IMG/VR virus record: IMGVR_UViG_3300006641_000148
Coordinates: 1-26,711 of that record
Source: a virus
Reading direction: 5' to 3' (one strand)
DNA: 26,711 bases
This document shows, one piece after another, positions 1,573 through 25,518 of the stretch; the stretch's first letter is position 1, and each line of letters opens with the position of its first letter. Under the pieces are notes generated by a model that made no database searches, was not told where the DNA came from, and saw only the letters and a program-made list of their open reading frames with translations. A program made the translations under genes and the position numbers.

Positions 1573-2943
1573 CTAGGCAGCGACTACCGGAATGGGGAAC
1601 GGCTTTGCCTTATGGCTGCCATCTGCTGGGGTCGGATGCACAAAACCGAACACATCCTTGCGGGCATCCGGGAGGTCTCCCTCGATGTAGACCGGAACTA
1701 GCCCGGTGAGGAACTCAATTCCTGCCGCGAAAATTGGCAGTGCATCTGAATATGCGTTGTTGCACGACACCTCCCACAGTGGCCCCTCCAAGAACATGCA
1801 GGCTCCTTTGCAGATTTGGAGCATTGGACAGTTCGGACATTCAGATCGATGCGACCAATGGGTAGCGGTTCGGAGGGCCACCTGATCGAGTTGGCTGGTG
1901 TGCCCAATGCGGTGAGATTCACCATTCGGAGCCAAAGCAGTGGCGCTGACGTTCTGACACGTAAGCACATTACCCTTGAGGTCCACGGCAATGGAGTCAT
2001 GCCGATCCATGCCGCACTTTTGTCCCAGGCTGGATGCCGGCCTTTTGAACCTCAGCGAATTGACGAAGGACGTCACCCGATCCCGAACGCTTGCAATGCG
2101 GTCGGCCTTTCCATTCCGGATGTCGTGAAAAGCTTGGCGTCTGAATGAATGGAATTCTTCAGGTCGAAGCGATTGGCTGATGCCGCCTGAGTCATAGGCA
2201 TCCACAAAACCGCCCTCCCCGATATGCACATCGGAGTCGCCAGTCAGTTCGACAAAAAAAGACTGGATGGCTGCTCTTGACTGGTTTTCACGATTGAGCA
2301 TCGCGTTGAAGCTGAAACGCTCTTTCGGAGCCAATCGACGGTACAGGTCGAGGATGGCCGCCCTGGAATCTGGCTCTGCCAATGGGTCAGGACCACGCAC
2401 ATGCTGGCCAGGCCCATCGTGCGAGACGCTGACGGTGAAACCCAGGTCATCAAGCCACTGGTTGGTCGACGGACTCAGAAGAGATCCGTTGGTGATCACA
2501 GAGAACCTAGCCTCAGGATATTTCTCTCGTAAGGCCTGTGCTAAAGGTCGGAGCGTCTTGATGTAGACCAGCGGCTCTCCACCCCAGAATTCGATGGCCT
2601 CTGGCGGACTCATGACCCAGTCCTTCAGTGAAGCAAGAAAGCCATCGACATCCTCCGGGTTCGTGTCCACATTGCGGGCCACGAAACGCTGAGAACAGTA
2701 TTCGCAGGCGTAATTGCATGACAAGCCGAGTGAGATTTTGAGAACGCGCGGGGACGTTTTACCCAAGGGAGTGTCCTTGCTCGTCACCGGCGCAGACGCT
2801 GGAGTGCTCCGCAGTGATGCATCGACCGTACGAACCAGCGATTGCCCGTGAAGGTCGGTCAAGCTGGAATCCGAATTGTCGTAGTGCAGTGGCACCACCT
2901 CATCCGTGCGTGGATCGACCGTGGTGATCAGGAATTTAGCCAT
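1573..2943 (-). CDS. Radical SAM/SPASM peptide- or protein-modifying enzyme
   Basis: Predicted 456-residue radical S-adenosylmethionine enzyme. The cluster-binding motif is C76-x3-C80-x2-C83 (SCNYACEYCSQ), followed by the GGEP SAM-contact motif at 121-124 and SVITNGSLL at about 148. The C-terminal part has a full SPASM-type cysteine set: C310, C329, C369, C372, C378, C382 and C394, which in this superfamily holds two auxiliary iron-sulfur clusters. Known SPASM enzymes modify proteins or ribosomal peptides (thioether crosslinks, sulfatase maturation, C-C bonds). The ATG at 2943 overlaps the upstream oxygenase stop as ATGGCTAA and has GGAAAG upstream; a longer frame to 3033 has no support. It is the last gene of a coupled fibre operon, so the Cys-rich fibre tip encoded upstream is the most obvious candidate substrate. 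No recognition (RRE) domain is evident. Family call very secure, substrate inferred. Confidence 0.93.
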   Translation of the reverse strand: MAKFLITTVDPRTDEVVPLHYDNSDSSLTDLHGQSLVRTVDASLRSTPASAPVTSKDTPLGKTSPRVLKISLGLSCNYACEYCSQRFVARNVDTNPEDVDGFLASLKDWVMSPPEAIEFWGGEPLVYIKTLRPLAQALREKYPEARFSVITNGSLLSPSTNQWLDDLGFTVSVSHDGPGQHVRGPDPLAEPDSRAAILDLYRRLAPKERFSFNAMLNRENQSRAAIQSFFVELTGDSDVHIGEGGFVDAYDSGGISQSLRPEEFHSFRRQAFHDIRNGKADRIASVRDRVTSFVNSLRFKRPASSLGQKCGMDRHDSIAVDLKGNVLTCQNVSATALAPNGESHRIGHTSQLDQVALRTATHWSHRSECPNCPMLQICKGACMFLEGPLWEVSCNNAYSDALPIFAAGIEFLTGLVPVYIEGDLPDARKDVFGFVHPTPADGSHKAKPFPIPVVAA

Positions 2944-3553
2944 TGTGTCTTTCCACCTTGATGTTGAGAAGTACCTGCATGAAGGGCGCATCTCCCATGT
3001 AGGTTTTTTGAAAATGAACGGCACGGGCATCAAATGCCACGAGTAATCCCCTGTGAGGCTGTATCCAGTACTTGGCGTGTGTTTCCCACGGCATCAAGCA
3101 TTTGCCAAAGCCCGAGGAGCGCCAGTCTGGATTGCAGATGGCAAAGGCATTCGCCCCGTATCGATTCACCTGCTCTTGCAAGTCTTTTGAAGGTTCCAGT
3201 TCAGGACCATTGGGGAAATACACCGCCTGCAAGTGGCACTCATCCTCATCCGAGTGAGGCATGATTTCCAAACCTGCGGTACGAACAACTTCCCGTCCTT
3301 GCAGGTGGGTGATCCGCCCACACGGCCCCACAAAGTCCCGTTGAAGGACAGGTAGTGCCATCCGGGCCAGTTGAGATGCAGTTGGGACCGATCCGTCAAA
3401 TATGTTGTGCGGATGCCGGCCCCAAATCTCACCCGCATCGGTCTTCATCGCGCCATGGACCTGCAATAGCGCCTGGTACAGCAGAAGGTCAAATGTGGGA
3501 TCAGTGTTGAGGGACCATAGACCCACAGCGGTGGGAAATAGGTTCAACCTCAT
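2936..3553 (-). CDS. Putative 2-oxoglutarate/Fe(II)-dependent oxygenase
   Basis: Predicted 205-residue protein. The N-terminus (LNLFPTAVGLWSLN) resembles the opening of the 2OG-FeII_Oxy_5 / TIGR02466 group, common in phages. A likely iron-binding facial triad is H100-x-D102 (MPHSDEDE) and H180 in GLLVAFDARAVHFQ, followed by a strand ending LLNIKVE in the usual double-stranded beta-helix order. The basic residue that normally grips 2-oxoglutarate after the second histidine is not obvious, so the co-substrate is uncertain. Members hydroxylate proteins, peptides or small molecules. The ATG overlaps the upstream stop as ATGA, and the stop overlaps the radical SAM start by eight bases. This arrangement suggests joint action with the radical SAM enzyme on one target, possibly the fibre protein; that is inference. 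Confidence 0.72.
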   Translation of the reverse strand: MRLNLFPTAVGLWSLNTDPTFDLLLYQALLQVHGAMKTDAGEIWGRHPHNIFDGSVPTASQLARMALPVLQRDFVGPCGRITHLQGREVVRTAGLEIMPHSDEDECHLQAVYFPNGPELEPSKDLQEQVNRYGANAFAICNPDWRSSGFGKCLMPWETHAKYWIQPHRGLLVAFDARAVHFQKTYMGDAPFMQVLLNIKVERHNG

Positions 3554-4407
3554 AGAACGTTCACCATCAGGTCATCGGTTCCAGAGAAATACTTGAATCC
3601 CACCTTGATCTTGGCCGAATCCCCCGCAGCCATGCCATCCGGTCTAAAGCTCGTCGAACCCGCACCGCCTGCAGTTCTGACGCGCCGGGCCACCAGATAA
3701 CCCGCCGTAGACTCCAGGTACACCTCGGCATCACGTTCTTCAATCGGCTCACCGTCTGGCGTTTCGAATTTGAAATTTATGCTGACTTCACCGTTGGACA
3801 CGACATTCAGTGATGGCCCTCCGACAAAGCGGACGACGGGGAGCGTTTCTTCGCGAACCAGCGCCAATGTGATGGCGGGTATGACTTCGATGTTGTGACT
3901 GGCCTTTATCAACTCCGGACTGAAAACATTGAAGCCAAGCGTCCAGTCCTCAAAAGGCGATGACCTGAAGGGCACCAAGATGTGCCCGATCGGATGTGTT
4001 TGAAGAACCGATGCGTGATAGGCCTGCGCATCCATCTTCGACCCTAGGGTCGCAACGTAGAGATTGGGCGTCTGTTGAAAAAACCCCGAAGGTGTCCCGT
4101 ACCTCTCCATGACCCCAACCGGGGCGTAAAGCATGAAACTGGCGTGATCTGAGAACTCAGCGTGCTGGCGCAATGTTTCCAGATCCAGCGTGCGCTGATA
4201 GATCGGATCGCCAAAGACACCGAAACCTCCGCGCCATTCAGCGATCAGGGCTTGATCAAAGAACTTGCCCCCGTTGGTGTGAAGTTTGGAAGGATCGCCT
4301 ACGAACTCCTGCTGCATGACAGATCGGACGCTGAAGGAGAGGACTGATCCGTCGAGCGCCACATCCAAAGCGAATGGGGGATTCTTGTTGCCGATGAAGA
4401 GTTTCAT
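3550..4407 (-). CDS. Cysteine-free protein of unknown function in fibre-modification operon
   Basis: I do not recognise a family for this 285-residue protein. It contains no cysteine at all, in contrast to its three neighbours. The first about 200 residues are mixed alpha/beta with many aromatic residues (for example AEWRGGFGVFGDPIYQ and HILVPFRSSPFEDWTLGFN). The last about 80 residues (GEVSINFKFETPDGEPIEER onward, ending GFKYFSGTDDLMVNVL) look like an Ig-like beta-sandwich. There is no signal peptide or membrane helix. The start has a strong ribosome site (GAGGAGAGG) just after the stop of the Cys-rich fibre gene, and the end overlaps the oxygenase start as ATGA. Possible roles are a fibre-assembly chaperone, a substrate adaptor for the modifying enzymes, or a structural partner of the fibre; none is shown. 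Confidence 0.8.
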   Translation of the reverse strand: MKLFIGNKNPPFALDVALDGSVLSFSVRSVMQQEFVGDPSKLHTNGGKFFDQALIAEWRGGFGVFGDPIYQRTLDLETLRQHAEFSDHASFMLYAPVGVMERYGTPSGFFQQTPNLYVATLGSKMDAQAYHASVLQTHPIGHILVPFRSSPFEDWTLGFNVFSPELIKASHNIEVIPAITLALVREETLPVVRFVGGPSLNVVSNGEVSINFKFETPDGEPIEERDAEVYLESTAGYLVARRVRTAGGAGSTSFRPDGMAAGDSAKIKVGFKYFSGTDDLMVNVL

Positions 4408-4416
4408 GTCCTCTCC

Positions 4417-5379
4417 TCAGCAGCAATTGCAATCGCAATTGCAGTTGTAGCGCGTGGTTTGCGATCCAAAACTGATGGTCGACCCGCCATCAACCAAGCG
4501 GAGCATGTAGTAATACGGGGTCGGCGCCTGGTCGCCGCAGTTGTAGTAATCAGCAGTGTTCGCCACGCAATTAGGTGCGCCTTGCCAGCCCGAAGTCGGG
4601 TTACTACTTCGGAAGCAATTGCTGACAGCATTGAAGAAGTAGTCGTGCAGCCACCCGTAGTTGGCAGTCCACAACGAGCCGCCGTTGTTCATGTACATGT
4701 CCCAGTTCCCGTCGGACTTCAAAAAGCCCATGAGATTGCTGTTCACATGCAGCGAGCGAGTCACATTGTCCGTGTCCTGCATCGTGATCGTCGGGGCGGT
4801 GTTCTGAATCGTCAGGTTCCCAGTCATCGTGTCGCCCGACTTGGCCACTCGGCTGGACAGATCAATGTTGACTGTGGCGTTGCCAGCGGCATCGGGGCCG
4901 GCGCCATTGACGGAGCGCACAAAAGCAGCCGAGTCATACCCGTCCAACTTATCGGCATCGGCTGCCTTGGCCGTGATGCCGAGATACGTCGTGTTGTGGT
5001 TGTGCGTGCTCGATGCGAAGGCGCTGGCGTGCTGGCCGTCCAGCAAGTCGGCATCGAGTCCAGTCCCGGCGCCGTCGACGGTGAGAAGCTTGGCCAGTAC
5101 ATCGGCTGCGGTGTAAGAAGCCGCATTGAGCTTGGCCGCGAACTGGGCATCAATTCCGCTGGACAAGTCCATGATGAAACGCCAGTTGTCGGGGTTGACT
5201 CCGATCAACTGGTAGAGCTTCAACTGATCCGTTCGGTAGCACAGCATCCCCACCTGAAGATTGGTGGTCGGGTAGGTGGTGCCGCTGTGGCAGGAGATCG
5301 CCGTCTTGTCGTTGTTCAGGATCTCAATCAACGAATCCGAGAGCGTTCTGGACGATGGAATGTCGGTGAAGCTTTGCAT
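4417..5379 (-). CDS. Tail fibre protein with Asn-Cys-rich C-terminus
   Basis: Predicted 320-residue fibre. Residues 105-155 carry two LDG repeats typical of trimeric phage tail fibres (LDADLLDGQHASAF and ADKLDGYDSAAFVR), then SGDTMTGNLTIQN at about 181, another widespread fibre motif. From about 210 a distal domain follows (NLMGFLKSDGNWDMYMNNGG, NYGWLHDYFF). Eight of the ten cysteines lie in the last 66 residues: 255, 271, 281, 313, 315, 317, 319 and 320. The first seven of these directly follow Asn (one follows Asp), and the chain ends NCNCDCNCC. The gene starts right after the preceding fibre's stop (TAG-ATG). It is followed by coupled genes for an unknown protein, a putative oxygenase and a radical SAM enzyme. 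The tip may bind metal, form disulfides or be enzymatically modified. Confidence 0.88.
   Translation of the reverse strand: MQSFTDIPSSRTLSDSLIEILNNDKTAISCHSGTTYPTTNLQVGMLCYRTDQLKLYQLIGVNPDNWRFIMDLSSGIDAQFAAKLNAASYTAADVLAKLLTVDGAGTGLDADLLDGQHASAFASSTHNHNTTYLGITAKAADADKLDGYDSAAFVRSVNGAGPDAAGNATVNIDLSSRVAKSGDTMTGNLTIQNTAPTITMQDTDNVTRSLHVNSNLMGFLKSDGNWDMYMNNGGSLWTANYGWLHDYFFNAVSNCFRSSNPTSGWQGAPNCVANTADYYNCGDQAPTPYYYMLRLVDGGSTISFGSQTTRYNCNCDCNCC
4420..4446 (-). repeat. Tandem hexamer coding the (Asn/Asp)-Cys tail
   Basis: Read on the minus strand, the end of the fibre gene is four near-identical hexamers, AACTGC, AATTGC, GATTGC and AATTGC, followed by TGC and the stop. It encodes NCNCDCNCC. Such a short tandem could expand or contract by slippage and so change the number of Cys-Asn units. 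Confidence 0.9.
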
Positions 5380-6732
5380 CTAGTACCCCTGTGCAATCCA
5401 AGTGAAGGAGCCGGTCAATCTCGTGCCGGAACTGTTTTCGAGGACGGCGATAAAGCCGGAAGTGGTGACTGCACCCAGCAGCCGAGGGATGGCGACTGTC
5501 GTGCCACCCTTGTGGGTCGTGGTCACCTCGGGCGGGACACGAAAGTTGCGGGAAAAATAGATTGCGGCACCCGCAGCGGCATCGGTGATCTGGGCAGTGC
5601 CCCGGTCAAAGATGTCAGGCACATCGACTGTCACCCGCAATGCGTCAATGAAGCCGCGATCAGAGTTGCGCGAGTTCAAGATGGCTCGAAACAGCGCGCG
5701 CCTGTAGGTGTAGTCGCCCTGGATGAAATCCCGAAAGTCGGTGTAACCCGGCGGGTGGCCAGCTTCGACGATGGCGGCAAAGTCTTGCTGGGTGATTTCG
5801 GTGCTGGCGACGAGCATGTCGCTGATCACGCCGTTGGCATGCCGGCGGTATTGCTCGGCCAGCGCCAGAGCCTCACGCACTTTCAGGTTCATTGCCCTTC
5901 GCAGGGCGTCCGACATTGCGAAGCCCTCGGTCAGGTTGCGGCGGTAGGCCACCGATCTGCCCAGTACTTCCGCGATGGCCAAGGCTTCAGCCACCCGCTT
6001 GATGGATTGCCGGGCCGCTTTGTCCGCGATGCCAAACGCCTCAGCGACCGGCTTTCGGACCTGCTTTGCGCCCAGATCGCTGACACTCAGACTTTCACTG
6101 ATGCGCAAAATGAAGGCGATCAGATCGGTGTAGGTCTCGGCAAACGCTACGGCTTCTGAGATGCGCTTAGTCATCAGCCGGTCCAAGTCGTCACCCAGTC
6201 CAAATGCTTCGTAGGCGTTCTTGGTCACACCGCGTTGTGGGGTCTCCGAAATCAGCAGGCTTTCTGCCAGGCGCTTGGTATTGCTCTGACGAAGCACGTC
6301 ACCCCAAGCCAGGCTCTCCGAGGAGTTTTTCGTCAGGAGGCGAGTGAGGTAATCGGATGCTAGGAAGGCCTCCCGAACCTCCTTGCGATTGGCTTTTCCG
6401 ACGCCCTCCGCAAAAGCCATTGATTCCACCCATCGAAGCACAAAGGCGATGAGGTCTGAATAGGTCTCTCCAAACCCAACTGCCTCGGACTCGCGCAGGG
6501 TCAACTGCTTGGCCATCCTCTCAGCGAAGCCCATCGCCTCGCTGGACCGCTTGGTCCACTGTCGTCCCGACGCCTCGACCACCGCGAGAGTCACGGCAAC
6601 GGCTACGTTGTAGACAGCGGGATAGGCAGTGGTCCAGTTCTTCCCGGCACTGGCGCTCGACCACGTAAAGCTCGCCGACGCCCATGTGTACCTCGCTCCT
6701 GGGGTTTCGGCGACTGTCACTGTATCGGGCAT
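5380..6732 (-). CDS. Repeat-stalk tail fibre/appendage protein
   Basis: Predicted 450-residue structural protein. Residues 1-60 form an N-terminal region (TWASASFTWSSASAGKNWTT) that may attach to the tail tip. Residues 63-299 consist of 13 copies of a unit beginning E-[AS]-x-x-[FLIVM], spaced 18 residues apart with three 20-residue spacings. Residues 303-385 are a conserved-looking linker domain (YTDFRDFIQGDYTYRRALFR). The last about 65 residues (NFRVPPEVTTTHKGG to SGSRL-like GTRLTGSFTWIAQGY) resemble the beta-rich C-terminal caps of phage tail fibres. It starts five bases after the previous tail gene and ends directly at the ATG of the Cys-rich fibre gene. No enzyme motif is seen. Role as a stalk or host-contact fibre is inferred from architecture and position. 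Confidence 0.75.
   Translation of the reverse strand: MPDTVTVAETPGARYTWASASFTWSSASAGKNWTTAYPAVYNVAVAVTLAVVEASGRQWTKRSSEAMGFAERMAKQLTLRESEAVGFGETYSDLIAFVLRWVESMAFAEGVGKANRKEVREAFLASDYLTRLLTKNSSESLAWGDVLRQSNTKRLAESLLISETPQRGVTKNAYEAFGLGDDLDRLMTKRISEAVAFAETYTDLIAFILRISESLSVSDLGAKQVRKPVAEAFGIADKAARQSIKRVAEALAIAEVLGRSVAYRRNLTEGFAMSDALRRAMNLKVREALALAEQYRRHANGVISDMLVASTEITQQDFAAIVEAGHPPGYTDFRDFIQGDYTYRRALFRAILNSRNSDRGFIDALRVTVDVPDIFDRGTAQITDAAAGAAIYFSRNFRVPPEVTTTHKGGTTVAIPRLLGAVTTSGFIAVLENSSGTRLTGSFTWIAQGY
5836..6546 (-). repeat. Thirteen 18-residue protein repeats in fibre stalk
   Basis: The repeat-initial glutamates fall at residues 65, 83, 103, 121, 139, 157, 175, 193, 213, 231, 249, 269 and 287. 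Spacing is 18 residues with three steps of 20. The loose consensus is E-[AS]-x-x-hydrophobic-small-[ED], then a basic stretch near the end of the unit. Units 2 and 8 are almost identical (EAVGFGETYSDLIAFVLR and EAVAFAETYTDLIAFILR), which suggests a later duplication of a 110-residue block. Confidence 0.9.
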
Positions 6733-6737
6733 GACAA

Positions 6738-7184
6738 TCAGCTCATCGTGAAGGTAAAGACTGCGGTCAGGCTGTCATCAGCCCCCTTGTTGACCACCGG
6801 AAAAACCACTCGATCGAGCATGATTCCGGCCGTCGCGGCATTGAACACGCCCGCCTCGGTGAGGGCGCCCGTGCTGTCTCCAGCCAAGAAGTCCGCGGTG
6901 AACGTAAAAGTCTTGGTGCCCGCCGTGTGCGCATAGGTAGCGGCATTGCGGTCGATTTCCGTCACCAGGGCCGACTGAGTGGCCGCAGCCGCCGTACTGC
7001 CGGTGCCCAGTGCGATGAAACCCATCACTGCGGGACGGCTTACCGACTTACCAATGGCATCGGCGATGAAGTCAAAGCCGACGTTGACGATGATGTTGTC
7101 CTTGTGGACCGTCTCGACCTCGCCACTCGCGCGGCGAAGGATGAGGGTCATGGCGCCCTGAAGCTGCATGGATTCGTCGATCAT
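6738..7184 (-). CDS. Tail tip/fibre-base protein
   Basis: Predicted 148-residue protein without transmembrane or signal segments. It contains ALGTGSTAAAATQSALVTEI at about 57 and GALTEAGVFNAATAGIMLDRVVFPVV near the end, a pattern I associate with small structural proteins found just after gpJ or near fibre genes in betaproteobacterial and other phages. The ending in alternating beta-strand residues (SLTAVFTFTMS) fits a structural beta-sandwich. The ATG at 7184 has GAGGA six bases upstream. Its location between host-specificity protein J and the repeat fibre suggests it forms part of the tail tip or the fibre attachment. No specific function can be named. Confidence 0.65.
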   Translation of the reverse strand: MIDESMQLQGAMTLILRRASGEVETVHKDNIIVNVGFDFIADAIGKSVSRPAVMGFIALGTGSTAAAATQSALVTEIDRNAATYAHTAGTKTFTFTADFLAGDSTGALTEAGVFNAATAGIMLDRVVFPVVNKGADDSLTAVFTFTMS

Positions 7185-7207
7185 GAAAAGTCCTCGCTAA
7201 ATGAAAA

Positions 7208-7231
7208 GGAGAAATGGAGAAATGGAGAAAT
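7208..7231 (-). repeat. Triple 8-bp tandem repeat in J-fibre intergenic gap
   Basis: On the plus strand GGAGAAAT occurs three times without interruption (7208-7215, 7216-7223, 7224-7231). In the minus-strand transcript it reads as a C/U-rich tract between the stem-loop after J and the ribosome site of the next gene. No protein use is seen. Confidence 0.9.
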
Positions 7232-7259
7232 GGCGCTGCCTCTTGCGAGAACAGCGCCA
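7231..7259 (-). terminator. Stem-loop after J, possible attenuator
   Basis: TGGCGCTG and CAGCGCCA form an 8-bp stem around a 13-base loop that can itself pair as CTC-GCAA-GAG with a GNRA-type tetraloop. It lies 31 bases after the J stop and is followed by TTTCTCCATTTCTCC rather than a clean U-run. It may therefore attenuate or protect the J message rather than fully terminate it. Confidence 0.5.
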
Positions 7260-7290
7260 CGGTTGGGGTTGGGTTTGGGAACGACGCGGT

Positions 7291-10200
7291 CTAGTACAGA
7301 CGCAAGGTCGAAAGAATTCCAACGGGAGCAAACCCCGCGCTTGCAGCCTGGATGTCACCGCCCATGCGACCGGCAAAAAGCCGCCGCTCAGAAGCGGTCT
7401 GGCACACCCCGATGCAGACGCGATCGGTGGCCGTCATCCCAAAGGGAACGCTCACGCGCCTGGCCAGGTGGTCCTCCAGAAAGAAGGCGGATGTGGCTGC
7501 GTCGTAGCCCACCAAGAGCAATCCAGAAGGGCCTGACGCGGTCCAGATCACGCAGGTTGTGACCTCGACGGGGATGAACCAAAAGGAGGTGTGAAACACC
7601 GATGGAACGCTTACCGTCCAAGCCACACGGGTGGTGTCCTTGACCATCAGACCATCACCATAGCGGCCGGCCGCATAGGCGATACCTGCCGCTTGGCTGG
7701 ATACTGCGCTGCCCAATCCAGCCGTTGAACCGTTCAGGCGCCAGCCGTAGATCTCTCCTGCTTGCAGCGTGTCCTCGCGGGCAATTTGAAACCTGGCATC
7801 CACATTGGCGACCGCTCCGTCATAGGCCCACTGGCGCCGGGCGGCGTCACCGCTCCACGGAAAATTCGCCTCCAGCCAGGTCGTTCGGTCGTCGACCGAG
7901 GCGCCCAGACTGTTGAGCAAGGTGTTCTGCGCCCGGATTGGCGACACCAGATCAAGCTCGAAGAGGTACTCGGCCGTTTGGGCCCCTGTACTCATGCGTA
8001 GGACGTTGCGGCCATTGACCGCGACCACCGATGCGAAATGCTTGGTCCCCGGAAAACCCAAGGCCTGCTCGTCCCGCTCCAGGATCAGGTTGGCGTTCTG
8101 CGGCTGCGCCACGACGGTCGACACAAAGGTCGGCGTGTCGCTGTATATGCCCGGTGAGGCAATCGCCTTGATCCAGAACCTGCGCTCGCCATCAAAGCCC
8201 GAGGGCAGCGTGTAACTCGTCGACTTGACCTCGGCCACGAAGAGCGACGCATCCCAAGCCGCGCCCTCGCGCAACTCATAACCCACCACCTCAGGCTCGG
8301 GGTTGGGCTGCCAGCGAAACTCCAGCCGATTGGCTGACTGCACGACATCGAACTGGCGCACGGTCGAAGGTGCGAGCAAGGTCAGCACGAAAGTCGTCAC
8401 ATGGGCGCTGTAGTTCCCGGAGGTATCGATCCCGCGTATGTGATACGGGTACTGCCCGGCAGCGCTCTGGTCGTGGACCATCTGGGTCGCCGCGGTCTTG
8501 GCCACCAACTGGGCGTTGTCCCAACCAGGCCCCACCCGCACCTCGTAGCCTGAGAGATCGGCGTCCAGAAGCTCGTCCCACTGAAGGAGCAGGTCCGACA
8601 TCCGGCGCTGGACCAGAAAGCCCGTGACGTCGGACGGCGGAAGCGTTTTCCCCAGCACCGTAGCGTTGAAGGTCGCCGGCACGCTTTCCTTGCGCGTGAT
8701 GCCAATGGCCCGCAGGCTGAACTCGTACTCGCCTTCCTGCGCGTCACGGATTTCGGCGTAGTTGGCACTGGTCAGCGGCAGGCTCACGAAGTTGCCGCCC
8801 CTGACCCGGTACGACAGCCGATACGCGATCGCAGCTTGCACCTCCGACCAGGACACTTGCACCAGAACCTGCGCCTGGTCCTTGACCCGGTAAAGGCTCT
8901 CTTGCACGGCAAGTCCGGTGGGTGTCGCCGGCACGTCCGAGAGGACCGTGATCGATCGTGGCTGGAGCGCCAGACCCTCCTCGATTGCGGCGTACTTGCT
9001 CGGGTTATGAGCCAGCGCCGTGACTTCATGCTCACCCGGATCACGCTCGGCGACAGCGACCACCCGGAAAAGTTGGGTCTCGATGATTGAGGATGCCAAC
9101 ACCCAGATCGCATCCGTCTGCGGGATCAAGCTGAACGGGATCGTCACCGTCAAGGTTCGGCCTGAAATCGGCCCGACCAGTCGCTCTTCAACAGTGCCAT
9201 TGGGCAGAATCACCGAGAGCCGCCACGGCAGATCCGCAGGCAGATCTTGGTCCAGCGTCACGGTGCTGGAGGTTGCCGCGGCAATCCGGCCCCCCAGTCG
9301 CATCCCTCCACGCACCGGGTCCGCCACCTTGATGACATCGCCCGGGCGCACCACGGCCCCTTCCAGACCAGTGCGGAAAGTGACAATTTCTGACTCGGAC
9401 TGCTCGGAGTACAAAAGCCACTTGCCCACGCGGTGAGCCTGGCCTCGGGAGGTGCATCCCAGAGCGACCACCTCGGCTTGCACGATGCCGTACCGAACGA
9501 TACCGGCTGCGTCCTCGACGTACTCGACCTTTTGCCGATAGAAGTCCTGCGGATCGTTCCAGGTCACCAGGGCTACCGTGTGCCGGGCCTTGGCCGACGA
9601 GCCTTGGTAGGCGAACTCACCATCGATCACGTTGCCAGGGGCGAATTGGTAAACCGGGTCCACCGGCGCGTCTTGCGTGACCGTGATGGCCCCACCCGAC
9701 CAATACACCATGCCCCGGAAAATCGAGGCTATGTCCTGAACGACCTTGTAGGCCTGCTCCCGTGTCTGGAGGTACAGGTTGCAGGTAAAGCGCGGCTCGA
9801 GCCTGCCCAGTCCGTCGGGAACGAGTTGATCGCAATACTGAGCCACTCGATACAGGGCCCACTTATCAACCTGTGCCTCCGGGATATAGCTGCCCAGCCC
9901 ATAACGGGTGCTCGTGACCAGGTCATAGAAACACCAGGCCGGGTTATCCGTCCAGGCGATCTTGAAGGTGCCGTCCCAGACCCCGCTGTAGGCCCGAGCG
10001 GCCACGTCGTAGTTCGCCGGCACCCTCACGCGCAGCAGCTTCATGTCGTAGCTGCGGCGTGGGATGGAGGAGAACTGCGAGGCATCGACCCGCAGCGCCA
10101 CCAGGGCGCTGTTGGGATACCTCAGCTTGCTCTCGATGACCTCGGTGTAGGACTCCAGATAGGTCTTGTTCTGGATTGCCGATGAGGTCGAATCGGCCGT

Positions 10201-22961: not shown

Positions 22962-24677
22962 TCAGAGCAGCATCAGCTCGTAATCGGATCCCAGCACCAC
23001 CGAGTCTCCCGGTTTGATCGCCCGTGAGAGGGCCATGATCAGTGCAACGATGCCGTCGATCTTGTTTTCTGCTCGCTCCTTGCGCGGATAGATGTTGTCT
23101 TTGGCGTCCAGGTGGGCGACCACGTTGCTGGCCATCCACGTGAGCACAGGGTCGCCGTCGTGGACCAGCTTTCTTTGCAGCACCAGGGCTTCGAGCGTTT
23201 TCATAGGTTCGCTGAAATTCAGTACCGTGGGCCGCACTTCGATCATGGGTAGCCCCTCGGCCAGCATGCGTGTCGACAACTGGGTGGCCTGAAAGGGATC
23301 GAAGGCCACTGCCTGGACGGCAAAGCGCGAGACCAGGTCCAGCAGGTCGGCCTCGATCCAGCCAAAATCGATCACGTTGCCCGGCGTCACGGTCAGGCGC
23401 CCCGTCCGCATCCAGCCGGGGTACTGGCTATTGCCCGCTGCCTGGACCGTGTCCTCGGGCAGGTAATACTTTCCAAACACCACGTAGGCGTCTGAGATCT
23501 CGGGGTGCTGAAACATCAGCATCAGCGCCGCGATGTCGGTCTTGCTGGCCAGGTCCAGGCCCACCCAACACGGCTGCCCCGTAAAAGCCTCGATATCCAG
23601 GGACGAGTCGCCGCAGGCATCCCAGGCCCGCATGTCCATCCAGGCCGTATCAGCGTTGACCCATTCGTTGAGGTGCTTCGTCTTGAAGTTATTGACCGCA
23701 CTGGGCAGTTGCATAGCCTTGGCCTGCAAAGGTCCCAAGATCTCGGGCCGGACCGATATGCCCCAGTTGGGGTTGGCTTTGACCAGGGCGTTCTCCGTGG
23801 TCCAGTCGTCCCCGTCATCAAGCCCGTACACGATCCCGAACTGGGTATCGTCTTCAAACACACCGTTGAGCAGCTTCGTCACGAAGGTTCGAGCCTCATA
23901 GCAAATGCCAGCCCGGTTACTTCCGGCTGTAGTGATCACCCACAGCAACGAGTTGTCCCGCTTGCCGGTTCCGGTCTCGACCACGTCGTAGACGGTGCGC
24001 GTTTTGTGCGCGTGAAGTTCATCGACACAACCAAAGTGGATGTTCAGGCCATCCAGCGTCGAGCCTTCAGCCGACAAGGCTTCAAACTTTGAACCCGACG
24101 CCAACACATGCATGTTGTGCGCTCCAACGTTCACAGCGAAGCGGCTTCGAAATCCGGCGCTGCGCCTAGCCATCGTCTGGGCGTCACCGAAGACGATGCG
24201 CGCCTGATCTCGGGTCGTAGCCAAGGAGTACACCTCGGCACCTCCCTCGCCGTCGGCTGCCAGCATGTACAGCGCCACGGCCGAGGACAGCGTTGATTTG
24301 GCGTTGCCGCGCGGCACCTCGATGTACGAGCGCCGATATCGCCGCTTGCCGTCGCTCTTCACCCAGCCAAAAACCGTCGACAGAATGAATATCTGCCACG
24401 GCTCCAAAGTGATCGACTCGCCAGCCAGAGGCCCCTTCACGTGCGGCAGCCGCTCAATGAAGGCGCAGAGGTTGTCGGCCGGGCAGAAGCTGCGCCCATC
24501 GCGGTCCACCAGCTTTGGGTTAAAGCGGTACGGACTGCCTTTGCCCTTGAAACGGGCTAAATCGTTGAGCTGCCTCTGGCATGCCAACTGCACCCAGCGG
24601 CAGCTCAGGATTTCACCAGCCACCACCTGCTCGGCGTACTGCCTGGCGATCTTGGCCGTTTGGTTCTTGGCACTCAT
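22962..24677 (-). CDS. Terminase large subunit
   Basis: Predicted 571-residue DNA packaging motor. The ATPase half has a Walker A-type motif VPRGNAKST at 121-129 and a Walker B pair CVDE at 217-220 (FGCVDELHAHK). The RNase H-like nuclease half starts with VGLDLASKTDIAAL, containing the first metal ligand D375, and later has AVAFDPFQATQLS and a C-terminal KIDGIVALIMALSRA segment. The N-terminus (ARQYAEQVVAGEILSC) is typical of HK97-type large subunits. The ATG at 24677 has no recognisable Shine-Dalgarno sequence, which may reflect the inserted toxin-antitoxin segment that separates it from the small subunit gene. Confidence 0.95.
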   Translation of the reverse strand: MSAKNQTAKIARQYAEQVVAGEILSCRWVQLACQRQLNDLARFKGKGSPYRFNPKLVDRDGRSFCPADNLCAFIERLPHVKGPLAGESITLEPWQIFILSTVFGWVKSDGKRRYRRSYIEVPRGNAKSTLSSAVALYMLAADGEGGAEVYSLATTRDQARIVFGDAQTMARRSAGFRSRFAVNVGAHNMHVLASGSKFEALSAEGSTLDGLNIHFGCVDELHAHKTRTVYDVVETGTGKRDNSLLWVITTAGSNRAGICYEARTFVTKLLNGVFEDDTQFGIVYGLDDGDDWTTENALVKANPNWGISVRPEILGPLQAKAMQLPSAVNNFKTKHLNEWVNADTAWMDMRAWDACGDSSLDIEAFTGQPCWVGLDLASKTDIAALMLMFQHPEISDAYVVFGKYYLPEDTVQAAGNSQYPGWMRTGRLTVTPGNVIDFGWIEADLLDLVSRFAVQAVAFDPFQATQLSTRMLAEGLPMIEVRPTVLNFSEPMKTLEALVLQRKLVHDGDPVLTWMASNVVAHLDAKDNIYPRKERAENKIDGIVALIMALSRAIKPGDSVVLGSDYELMLL

Positions 24678-24700
24678 GCAAGGGTGATTTCAATCATGTA

Positions 24701-24729
24701 TTGACATCAGCTACACATCCAGCTAGGAT
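24701..24729 (+). promoter_or_regulatory. Sigma-70-type promoter of toxin-antitoxin operon
   Basis: TTGACA at 24701-24706 is separated by exactly 17 bases from TAGGAT at 24724-24729. Transcription would begin near 24736, about 28 bases before the antitoxin start. It lies in the 86-base divergent gap between the terminase large subunit and antitoxin genes. Confidence 0.8.
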
Positions 24730-24731
24730 TC

Positions 24732-24748
24732 GTGTATCTGTTGTGTAT
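24732..24748 (+). promoter_or_regulatory. Putative antitoxin operator (GTGTAT direct repeats)
   Basis: GTGTAT occurs at 24732-24737 and again at 24743-24748, 11 bases apart, about one helical turn. TACACA at 24712-24717 is an inverted partner of TGTGTA at 24742-24747. The repeats overlap the expected transcription start, a suitable location for autorepression by a ribbon-helix-helix antitoxin. Binding is inferred. Confidence 0.5.
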
Positions 24749-24763
24749 TCGTTTGGAGATGCC

Positions 24764-25033
24764 ATGCGTGACGCCGCCATCAATTTGCGAGCCCTGCCTC
24801 AACAGCGCGACCTGATCGACCAGGCCGCGCACCTGCTTGGGAAAAACCGGTCTGACTTCATGCTGGAAGCCGCCTGCGACAAGGCTCAGTCGGTGCTGCT
24901 TGACCAGGTGTTCTTCAGCCTGGATGACGCCAAGTTCCGGGAGTTCACGGCCATGCTGGATGCGCCGGTACAACCCAACCCAGGGCTGGAACGCTTGCTG
25001 GCGGTCAAGGCCCCCTGGAAAGTTGGCGCATGA
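24764..25033 (+). CDS. DUF1778 ribbon-helix-helix antitoxin (TacA/AtaR-like)
   Basis: Predicted 89-residue antitoxin. Residues MRDAAINLRALPQQRDLIDQ form the N-terminal strand-helix of a ribbon-helix-helix DNA-binding domain, followed by AAHLLGKNRSDFMLEAA, and the C-terminal toxin-neutralising tail ends in NPGLERLLAVKAPW, as in the DUF1778 family. It should dimerise, bind its own promoter and inhibit the GNAT toxin. TGGAG lies five bases before the ATG; upstream in-frame sequence covers the promoter and is not coding. The stop overlaps the toxin start as ATGA. This pair is on the opposite strand to all other genes and splits the terminase genes. Confidence 0.92.
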   Translation: MRDAAINLRALPQQRDLIDQAAHLLGKNRSDFMLEAACDKAQSVLLDQVFFSLDDAKFREFTAMLDAPVQPNPGLERLLAVKAPWKVGA

Positions 25034-25518
25034 ACTTGCGTGCCCCGGAGTCGTTGTCACCGGATCACCAAGTCAGCTCATTCGCCTGCGGCGAATCCAC
25101 GCTCGACGAGTGGCTCAAACGTCGCGCTCTGGGCAACCAGGCCAGTGGTGCCAGCCGCACGTTCGTCGTCACAACCCCAGAGCGTGAGGTCATGGGCTAC
25201 TACGCTTTGGCTGCAGGTGCCGTCGCGCACCAAGATGCTGCCCGGTCCATTCGTCAAAACATGCCCGATCCAGTTCCAGTGATGGTCCTGGCCCGGTTGG
25301 CTATCGATGCCCGAGCGCAAGGAATGAAACTGGGGGCAGCCTTGCTTCAGGATGCGCTACAGCGCTGTGTTCTGGTATCGCAAAACACAGGTGTGCGAGC
25401 CATGCTTGTGCATGCACTCAACGATCGTGCCCGCCAGTTTTACGAGTACTACGGTTTTAAGGCATCGCCCGTACATCCCATGACACTGATGCTGCGGATC
25501 AATCAGTCATCAATCTGA
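25030..25518 (+). CDS. GNAT-family acetyltransferase toxin (TacT/AtaT-like)
   Basis: Predicted 162-residue toxin. Known relatives block translation by acetylating the amino group of aminoacyl-tRNA with acetyl-CoA. Visible features are HQVSSFACGESTLDEWLKRR at the N-terminus, SRTFVVTTPEREVMGYYAL, the acetyl-CoA binding region VMVLARLAIDARAQGMKLG at about 85-102 and the conserved tyrosine motif QFYEYYGF at about 137-143. QGMKLG departs slightly from the usual QGxGLG. It is coupled to the antitoxin by a four-base overlap. Its stop is only three bases from the convergent terminase small subunit stop, so no terminator fits between them. Confidence 0.93.
   Translation: MNLRAPESLSPDHQVSSFACGESTLDEWLKRRALGNQASGASRTFVVTTPEREVMGYYALAAGAVAHQDAARSIRQNMPDPVPVMVLARLAIDARAQGMKLGAALLQDALQRCVLVSQNTGVRAMLVHALNDRARQFYEYYGFKASPVHPMTLMLRINQSSI

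Follow-up and report, generated by a model that had tools for sequence, protein, structure and literature searches.

An exchangeable Asn/Asp-Cys tail-fibre tip as a probable substrate of an adjacent radical-SAM/SPASM enzyme in tailed phages

Introduction

PapB, a radical-SAM enzyme with a SPASM domain, links Cys to the Cβ of Asp and tolerates Cys-Xn-Asp substrates with n = 0–6 (PMC9413430). QhpD, another radical-SAM enzyme, installs intraprotein Cys-Asp/Glu thioethers in quinohemoprotein amine dehydrogenase, and the cluster of the ranthipeptide maturase CteB has an open site near the substrate (both PMC8326336); in enteropeptin, a six-membered thiomorpholine is formed from Cys and one other residue (PMC12395415).

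The locus described here lies in a viral DNA of 26,711 nucleotides (positions 1 to 26,711 of IMG/VR record IMGVR_UViG_3300006641_000148), which is called the window throughout. Similar to the PapB system, it combines radical-SAM and SPASM domains with an adjacent gene for a Cys-rich candidate substrate that carries an acidic or amide residue near each Cys, but here this substrate would be part of the virion, a fibre about 300 aa long whose core is C-terminal, and Asn or Asp stands directly before Cys rather than in a CX3D arrangement. PapB (NF047865) is the best-scoring curated family, yet the window enzyme reaches 56.4 bits against a cut-off of 340. If thioethers form here, the likeness to QhpD (TIGR03906) would be that a functional protein is modified and not a released peptide; the QhpD target, in contrast, is a bacterial enzyme subunit and not a virion part, and the window enzyme scores 43.5 vs. 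453 bits. If the Cys sulphur were bonded to the alpha carbon of the residue before it, a six-membered ring as in enteropeptin would likewise result, but enteropeptin is a free self-inhibitory peptide with an N-methylornithine acceptor and without phage or fibre.

Among virion structures, the T4 fibre tip carries HxH iron-binding sites. Metal-capable residues likewise alternate at the distal tip of the fibre studied here, but they are Cys and not His, and a dedicated, presumably modifying enzyme accompanies the tract. Some phage fibres end in Hint autoprocessing domains or Peptidase_S74 intramolecular chaperones, and either follows the tract in relatives of the window fibre, whereas the window fibre stops at the tract itself. 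The prevailing view is that phage fibre tips are unmodified protein, and no earlier description of a radical-SAM-modified fibre was found in the open-access literature.

Results

A fibre tip with Asn- or Asp-preceded cysteines

The fibre ORF matched tail-fibre PHROGs (best phrog_7389, E 2.5e-10) and is followed on the same strand by a protein X, a 205-aa oxygenase-like protein and the radical-SAM enzyme (Table 1).

Table 1. Positions of the fibre, its tip and the downstream genes in the window
Feature	Position	Strand	Remark
Tail fibre with C-terminal Asn/Asp-Cys tip	4417..5379	-	320 aa
Fibre stem, aa 1-248, common to phages with different tips	4636..5379	-	DNA similarity, identity
Exchangeable tip domain, aa 249-320, all N/D-preceded Cys within	4420..4635	-	
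N254-C255 pair	4615..4620	-	invariant in alignment A2
N270-C271 pair	4567..4572	-	conserved in class I tips
N280-C281 pair	4537..4542	-	invariant in alignment A2
Terminal tract NCNCDCNCC, aa 312-320, proposed modified core	4420..4446	-	alignment A2
Protein X, 285 aa, own N-terminal domain and Ig-like C-terminal domain	3550..4407	-	
2OG-Fe(II) oxygenase-like protein, 205 aa, HSD at 100-102, H180	2936..3553	-	
Radical-SAM/SPASM enzyme, predicted peptide maturase	1573..2943	-	456 aa from ATG at 2943 (longest ORF to 3033)
CxxxCxxC radical-SAM cluster motif, C76, C80, C83	2695..2718	-	invariant in 49 sequences
Seven-Cys SPASM motif CX13GX4C-CX2CX5CX3C-C, C310 to C394	1762..2016	-	invariant in 49

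The fibre contains ten Cys (positions 30, 47, 255, 271, 281, 313, 315, 317, 319, and 320). Asn precedes C255, C271, C281, C313, C315, and C319, Asp precedes C317, and Cys precedes C320, while the two stem Cys depart from the rule (C30 after Ser, C47 after Leu). The chain ends in RYNCNCDCNCC, so that the tract abuts the stop codon, and C313, C315, C317, C319, and C320 are invariant in tip alignment A2. A preliminary description had reported the seven N/D-preceded Cys between 255 and 319 and the NCNCDCNCC end, exactly as they are found in the ORF translation; its term 'seven leading cysteines' suits the seven pairs but not their place, as C30 and C47 precede them and break the rule. It had also held that random placement would not give such a pattern, and consistently, with the composition of the fibre fixed, residue shuffling reached seven or more N/D-C pairs in only 3.5e-4 of trials, so that a chance origin of the pairing is unlikely even within one N/D-rich protein. 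Neither HxH in the window fibre tip (aa 249–320) nor a CxPxR sulfatase motif in the tips was found, and the CX3D/E motifs of PapB-type substrates are replaced by the (N/D)-C alternation of the tract.

In 138 non-redundant systems, 987 of the 1223 tip-region Cys follow Asn or Asp (896 Asn, 91 Asp), vs. 74 of 295 preceded by Asn elsewhere in the proteins of these systems. The rule also holds outside the seed motif, as Asn (167) or Asp (16) precedes 183 of 266 such Cys in the loci of the DNA scan described below (among the matches listed). The tract is not a DNA microsatellite, because 151 of 157 tracts use mixed codons. Ala stands between the tract Cys in some relatives (NCNCACACACACDC in L206, and similarly in L209); Asn is thus favoured but not obligatory. 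The Ala-containing tracts therefore weaken the case for a side-chain acceptor, and the acceptor may be the backbone alpha carbon.

Single-linkage clustering separates the tip domains of the 138 systems into at least 14 sequence groups. Comparison of homologous fibre C-termini, which the preliminary description had proposed as a check, gave diverse tips with the N/D-C tract kept in all complete ones, the opposite of the case it had named as refuting, namely a retained fold with the N-C dipeptides lost. A distant second group (L031, L052, L083, L111) has long CQxCQx repeats that end in NCNCDCNC-like tracts, and the radical-SAM enzymes near these proteins are more distant (E about 1e-20 to 1e-31).

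Linkage of the tract to a radical-SAM gene

Nearly every one of some 200 related loci has an N/D-C tract with its own dedicated radical-SAM gene beside it. IMG/VR was scanned, blind to neighbouring genes, with a DNA pattern for NCNC(N/D)C(N/D)C, and the first 80 loci of the matches listed were analyzed. The tract was mostly at the C-termini of tail proteins, and at least 57 ORFs (≥90 aa) in these 80 loci carried it in their last 20 residues. Among the matches listed, the radical-SAM gene was present at 47 of the 57 terminal-tract tail-like ORFs, at all 30 terminal-tract loci with at least 4 kb of downstream sequence, and, when near-copies were collapsed to distinct tails, at 35 of 39.

In the reverse direction, a profile of the radical-SAM enzyme yielded 69 strong loci in bacterial genomes. 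In 57 of them, an N/D-C-rich ORF precedes the enzyme gene on its strand within 5 kb; none has such an ORF downstream on that strand, and the opposite strand gave one upstream and one downstream. Most loci scored as having no tip look cut by a contig end, have the tip elsewhere or miss the scoring threshold; clear tip-less exceptions are RiPP-like bacterial loci such as L192, L196, L199, and L200, and the phage-like L195.

Homologues of the fibre stem were found at 79 loci, 57 of which cover the fibre completely together with 3.2 kb or more of downstream sequence. Both tract and radical-SAM gene were present in 56 of these 57, the tract only in one (L299), and a fibre without the tract in none, with strongly divergent tip domains among them. 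A search of 200 genomes with an 18-base DNA pattern matched 56, but the reversed control also matched widely and the pattern was too noisy; only 3 of the 200 genomes contained the radical-SAM gene. Radical-SAM proteins of Campylobacter phages align over a short stretch only, at about 30% identity; one sampling of their surroundings gave no N/D-C-rich ORF, and they are probably a different enzyme.

Exchange of the tip together with the downstream genes

Compared with the DNA of locus L016, the window remains similar up to fibre aa 248, loses similarity over the tip, X and the oxygenase, and regains it at about aa 64 of the radical-SAM enzyme. The fibre is 93% identical to that of L016 in the stem and 35% in the tip, while the values for L003 are 66% and 89%, respectively. 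Identity is 46% over the N-terminal 64 residues of the radical-SAM enzyme vs. 68% over its core. The tip, X, the oxygenase and the radical-SAM N-terminus are thus exchanged as one block and the stem is not; given this pattern of tip and stem, the tip travels with its enzymes. The N-terminus of the enzyme may read the tip. At L001 (3705–4448), an upstream tail ORF is fused to the C-terminal part of the oxygenase, without fibre and X, on a contig that carries the same radical-SAM gene; this is either a real deletion or an assembly error.

The radical-SAM/SPASM enzyme and its relatives

The enzyme matched PF04055 above its cut-off (E 6e-8), phrog_1802 (E 5e-62 over 354 residues) and the SPASM family TIGR04085 (E 4e-8, 33.6 vs. 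a cut-off of 27 bits), and the nearest curated families, the PapB ranthipeptide maturase (E 3e-15), the geopeptide maturase, HxsB and QhpD, were all below their cut-offs. Exactly ten Cys columns are conserved in alignment A1 of 49 diverse relatives, those of CxxxCxxC and the seven of the SPASM motif; an eighth conserved SPASM Cys is absent across the 49 sequences. Three features of the superfamily are present: CxxxCxxC in the radical-SAM domain, a SPASM motif of the form CX9-15GX4C-CX2CX5CX3C-C, and an adjacent candidate peptide substrate with a repeated core. A RiPP recognition element, which is common but not universal in such enzymes, might lie in the N-terminal 64 residues that diverge with the tip.

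By sequence, the anaerobic sulfatase maturase (4k36–4k39), with radical-SAM and SPASM domains, is a close solved structure. It has one more cluster Cys and an Asp after the next Cys, both of which are missing here, and CteB likewise lacks that extra Cys. Gln follows C329 in 47 of the 49 sequences, the family reading C310...C329-Q-N. An open auxiliary cluster is only suggested, because position 316 is Asp in 34 of 49 sequences and D316 could ligate this cluster, closing a site otherwise open to a substrate Cys.

A Comamonadaceae metagenome-assembled genome (L143) encodes an enzyme with 100% identity to that of the window, and close relatives occur in Limnohabitans. Thalassobacter stenotrophicus has several copies in one genome (L187, L191, L203, L211; three long, one partial), and in Polynucleobacter necessarius (L204) the gene is broken up into several reading frames, which points to a prophage in decay.

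Non-phage relatives, which intermingle with the phage forms in the enzyme tree, lie beside a peptidase-C39 ABC exporter and HlyD (L192, region 3374–5575 of the radical-SAM locus), an ABC transporter (L196), or a YcaO cyclodehydratase with a nitroreductase domain (Variovorax L200, 5355–7655). The neighbourhoods of L192 and L200 look like RiPP loci; no convincing small Cys-rich precursor peptide was found beside the non-phage relatives.

Protein X and the oxygenase

The X family is present in 134 loci. Among the 138 non-redundant systems, 112 loci have an X-family protein and 17 have a member of an alternative family, that of phage JWF; the two families never occur together. The model of X (pLDDT 93) gave Ig-like and intimin-type matches, which pointed to no function; some family members weakly match Big_1, and the annotated phage collection contains no relative of X. 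X may be a partner or presenter of the tip, or a virion component. In L195, a radical-SAM gene is directly preceded by that of a phage tail tube protein (7036–7956; PF18906) that matches, at its C-terminus, the Ig-like end of X; no N/D-C tract was seen.

The 205-aa oxygenase-like protein of the window alone had no family match in profile searches, and its AlphaFold model from 8 sequences was poor (pLDDT 46), so family profiles were used instead. Members of its family match PF13759 (32/46) and phrog_81 (35/46), and H100 and H180 are invariant. Oxygenases were found in 101 of the 138 non-redundant systems, and so not in every locus.

Position of the tract at the probable mature C-terminus in relatives

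The tract directly precedes a Cys-starting Hint domain in the Achromobacter phages JWF (an isolated temperate siphovirus that UV induces; PMC3899368) and 2-1, in Burkholderia paludis, and in others; one pattern search gave at least 13 distinct cases of tract followed by Hint, and further cases were found besides. Similarly, a Peptidase_S74 follows the tract in L060, and in the Hint-ended stem homologue L241 the tract lies upstream of the Hint domain. Cleavage by Hint or S74 would make the tract the new C-terminal end of the chain, and its placement looks as if a mature C-terminal position were required.

Discussion

The fibre tip is probably the in-situ substrate of a phage-borne RiPP-type maturase, most likely one that forms thioethers. 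The tract and its conservation, the linkage to the enzyme from both directions, the block exchange and the location of the tract at or near the mature C-terminus are the observations on which this explanation is built. The adjacent radical-SAM/SPASM enzyme would modify the Cys of the exchangeable tip, above all those of NCNCDCNCC, in the infected cell. The likeliest products would be short thioethers in which each Cys sulphur is bonded to a carbon in a neighbouring residue, with the preceding Asn or Asp as the favoured acceptor. Such links would give the fibre a rigid distal cap, stable to proteases and to redox change, and this cap might contact a receptor. The 2OG-Fe(II) oxygenase may hydroxylate, for example, Asn, and X may present or accompany the tip. 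The weak points of this explanation are the Ala in some tracts, the score of the enzyme far below the PapB cut-off, its undemonstrated N-terminal RiPP recognition element, D316, and the patchy occurrence and poor model of the oxygenase.

The preliminary description was silent on the downstream radical-SAM gene. Of its three options, that of a recurring modification site is strongly supported because a dedicated radical-SAM/SPASM enzyme travels with the tract, while a metal-binding tip and a disulfide lattice gained no positive evidence and would leave the enzyme unexplained. A stable thioether would answer its worry over ten Cys in a reducing cytoplasm.

Modification of the tip by the same enzyme without thioethers, that is, epimerisation to alternating D/L residues (polytheonamide class) or conversion of Cys to formylglycine, is doubtful. 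Alternating epimerisation would fit the strict alternation of Cys with Asn, Asp or Ala; by sequence, the nearest structures include solved anaerobic sulfatase maturases, and the phage JWF enzyme is annotated as such a maturase. Against this, thioethers are what the best-scoring curated family makes, and formylglycine formation is opposed by the lack of CxPxR in the tips. Two marks of the sulfatase maturases are also missing from the enzyme, a fourth Cys for the auxiliary cluster and an Asp directly behind the next Cys. The linkage between tract and enzyme is what a metal-binding tip fails to explain. In a Cys counterpart of the T4 HxH sites, CxCxC would put all sulphurs on one face of a beta-strand as HxH does, and the trimeric tip would bind metal with the radical-SAM gene as incidental company; this is very unlikely, as it accounts neither for the presence of that gene (30/30 among the matches listed, 56/57 stem homologues) nor for the block exchange and the usual Asn between the Cys. 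A disulfide lattice formed after lysis would draw on many closely spaced Cys of an exposed tip, but no thiol oxidase was recognised in the cassette and the radical-SAM linkage would again be left over, and we find it hardly credible.

2OG oxygenases (phrog_81) are common in phages. Together with the recombinogenic nature of the region, this would agree with the radical-SAM enzyme, the oxygenase and X being cargo in a variable region behind the fibre genes and acting on another target; such an origin is quite improbable, since the association emerged whether the search began with only the tract or with only the enzyme, and since tip and cassette swap together while the stem does not. An origin of the NC tract as a side effect of some 6-bp repeat in the DNA has next to no likelihood: AACTGC hexamer repeats without this radical-SAM gene, false matches to the DNA pattern, do occur in the Comamonadaceae genomes G010 and G193, but besides the mixed codons, isolated N-C pairs outside the tract obey the rule as well.

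Beyond this locus, we lean towards the broader proposal that tailed phages carry exchangeable RiPP-like cassettes that cross-link the outermost fibre residues into a chemical cap, possibly with one S–C ring per Asn-Cys and in places exposed by Hint or S74. If so, a part of the virion would be built by radical-SAM peptide chemistry, as a kind of receptor-contact or cell-entry device, and many phages, among them those of freshwater Burkholderiales (such as Limnohabitans and Polynucleobacter), Rhodobacterales and Rhodospirillales and the Achromobacter phages, would build their tips by a radical chemistry otherwise known from peptide antibiotics and few enzymes. It would also assign phrog_1802 a function in phages and explain why oxygenase and radical-SAM genes lie next to those of fibres; the C-terminal (N/D)C tract would be a substrate on which a peptide-stapling enzyme acts in nature, and such tips could be found by sequence.

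Elsewhere in the window, a pair of small ORFs by the terminase genes (24581–25518) resembles, by eye, a DUF1778-type antitoxin and a GNAT toxin.
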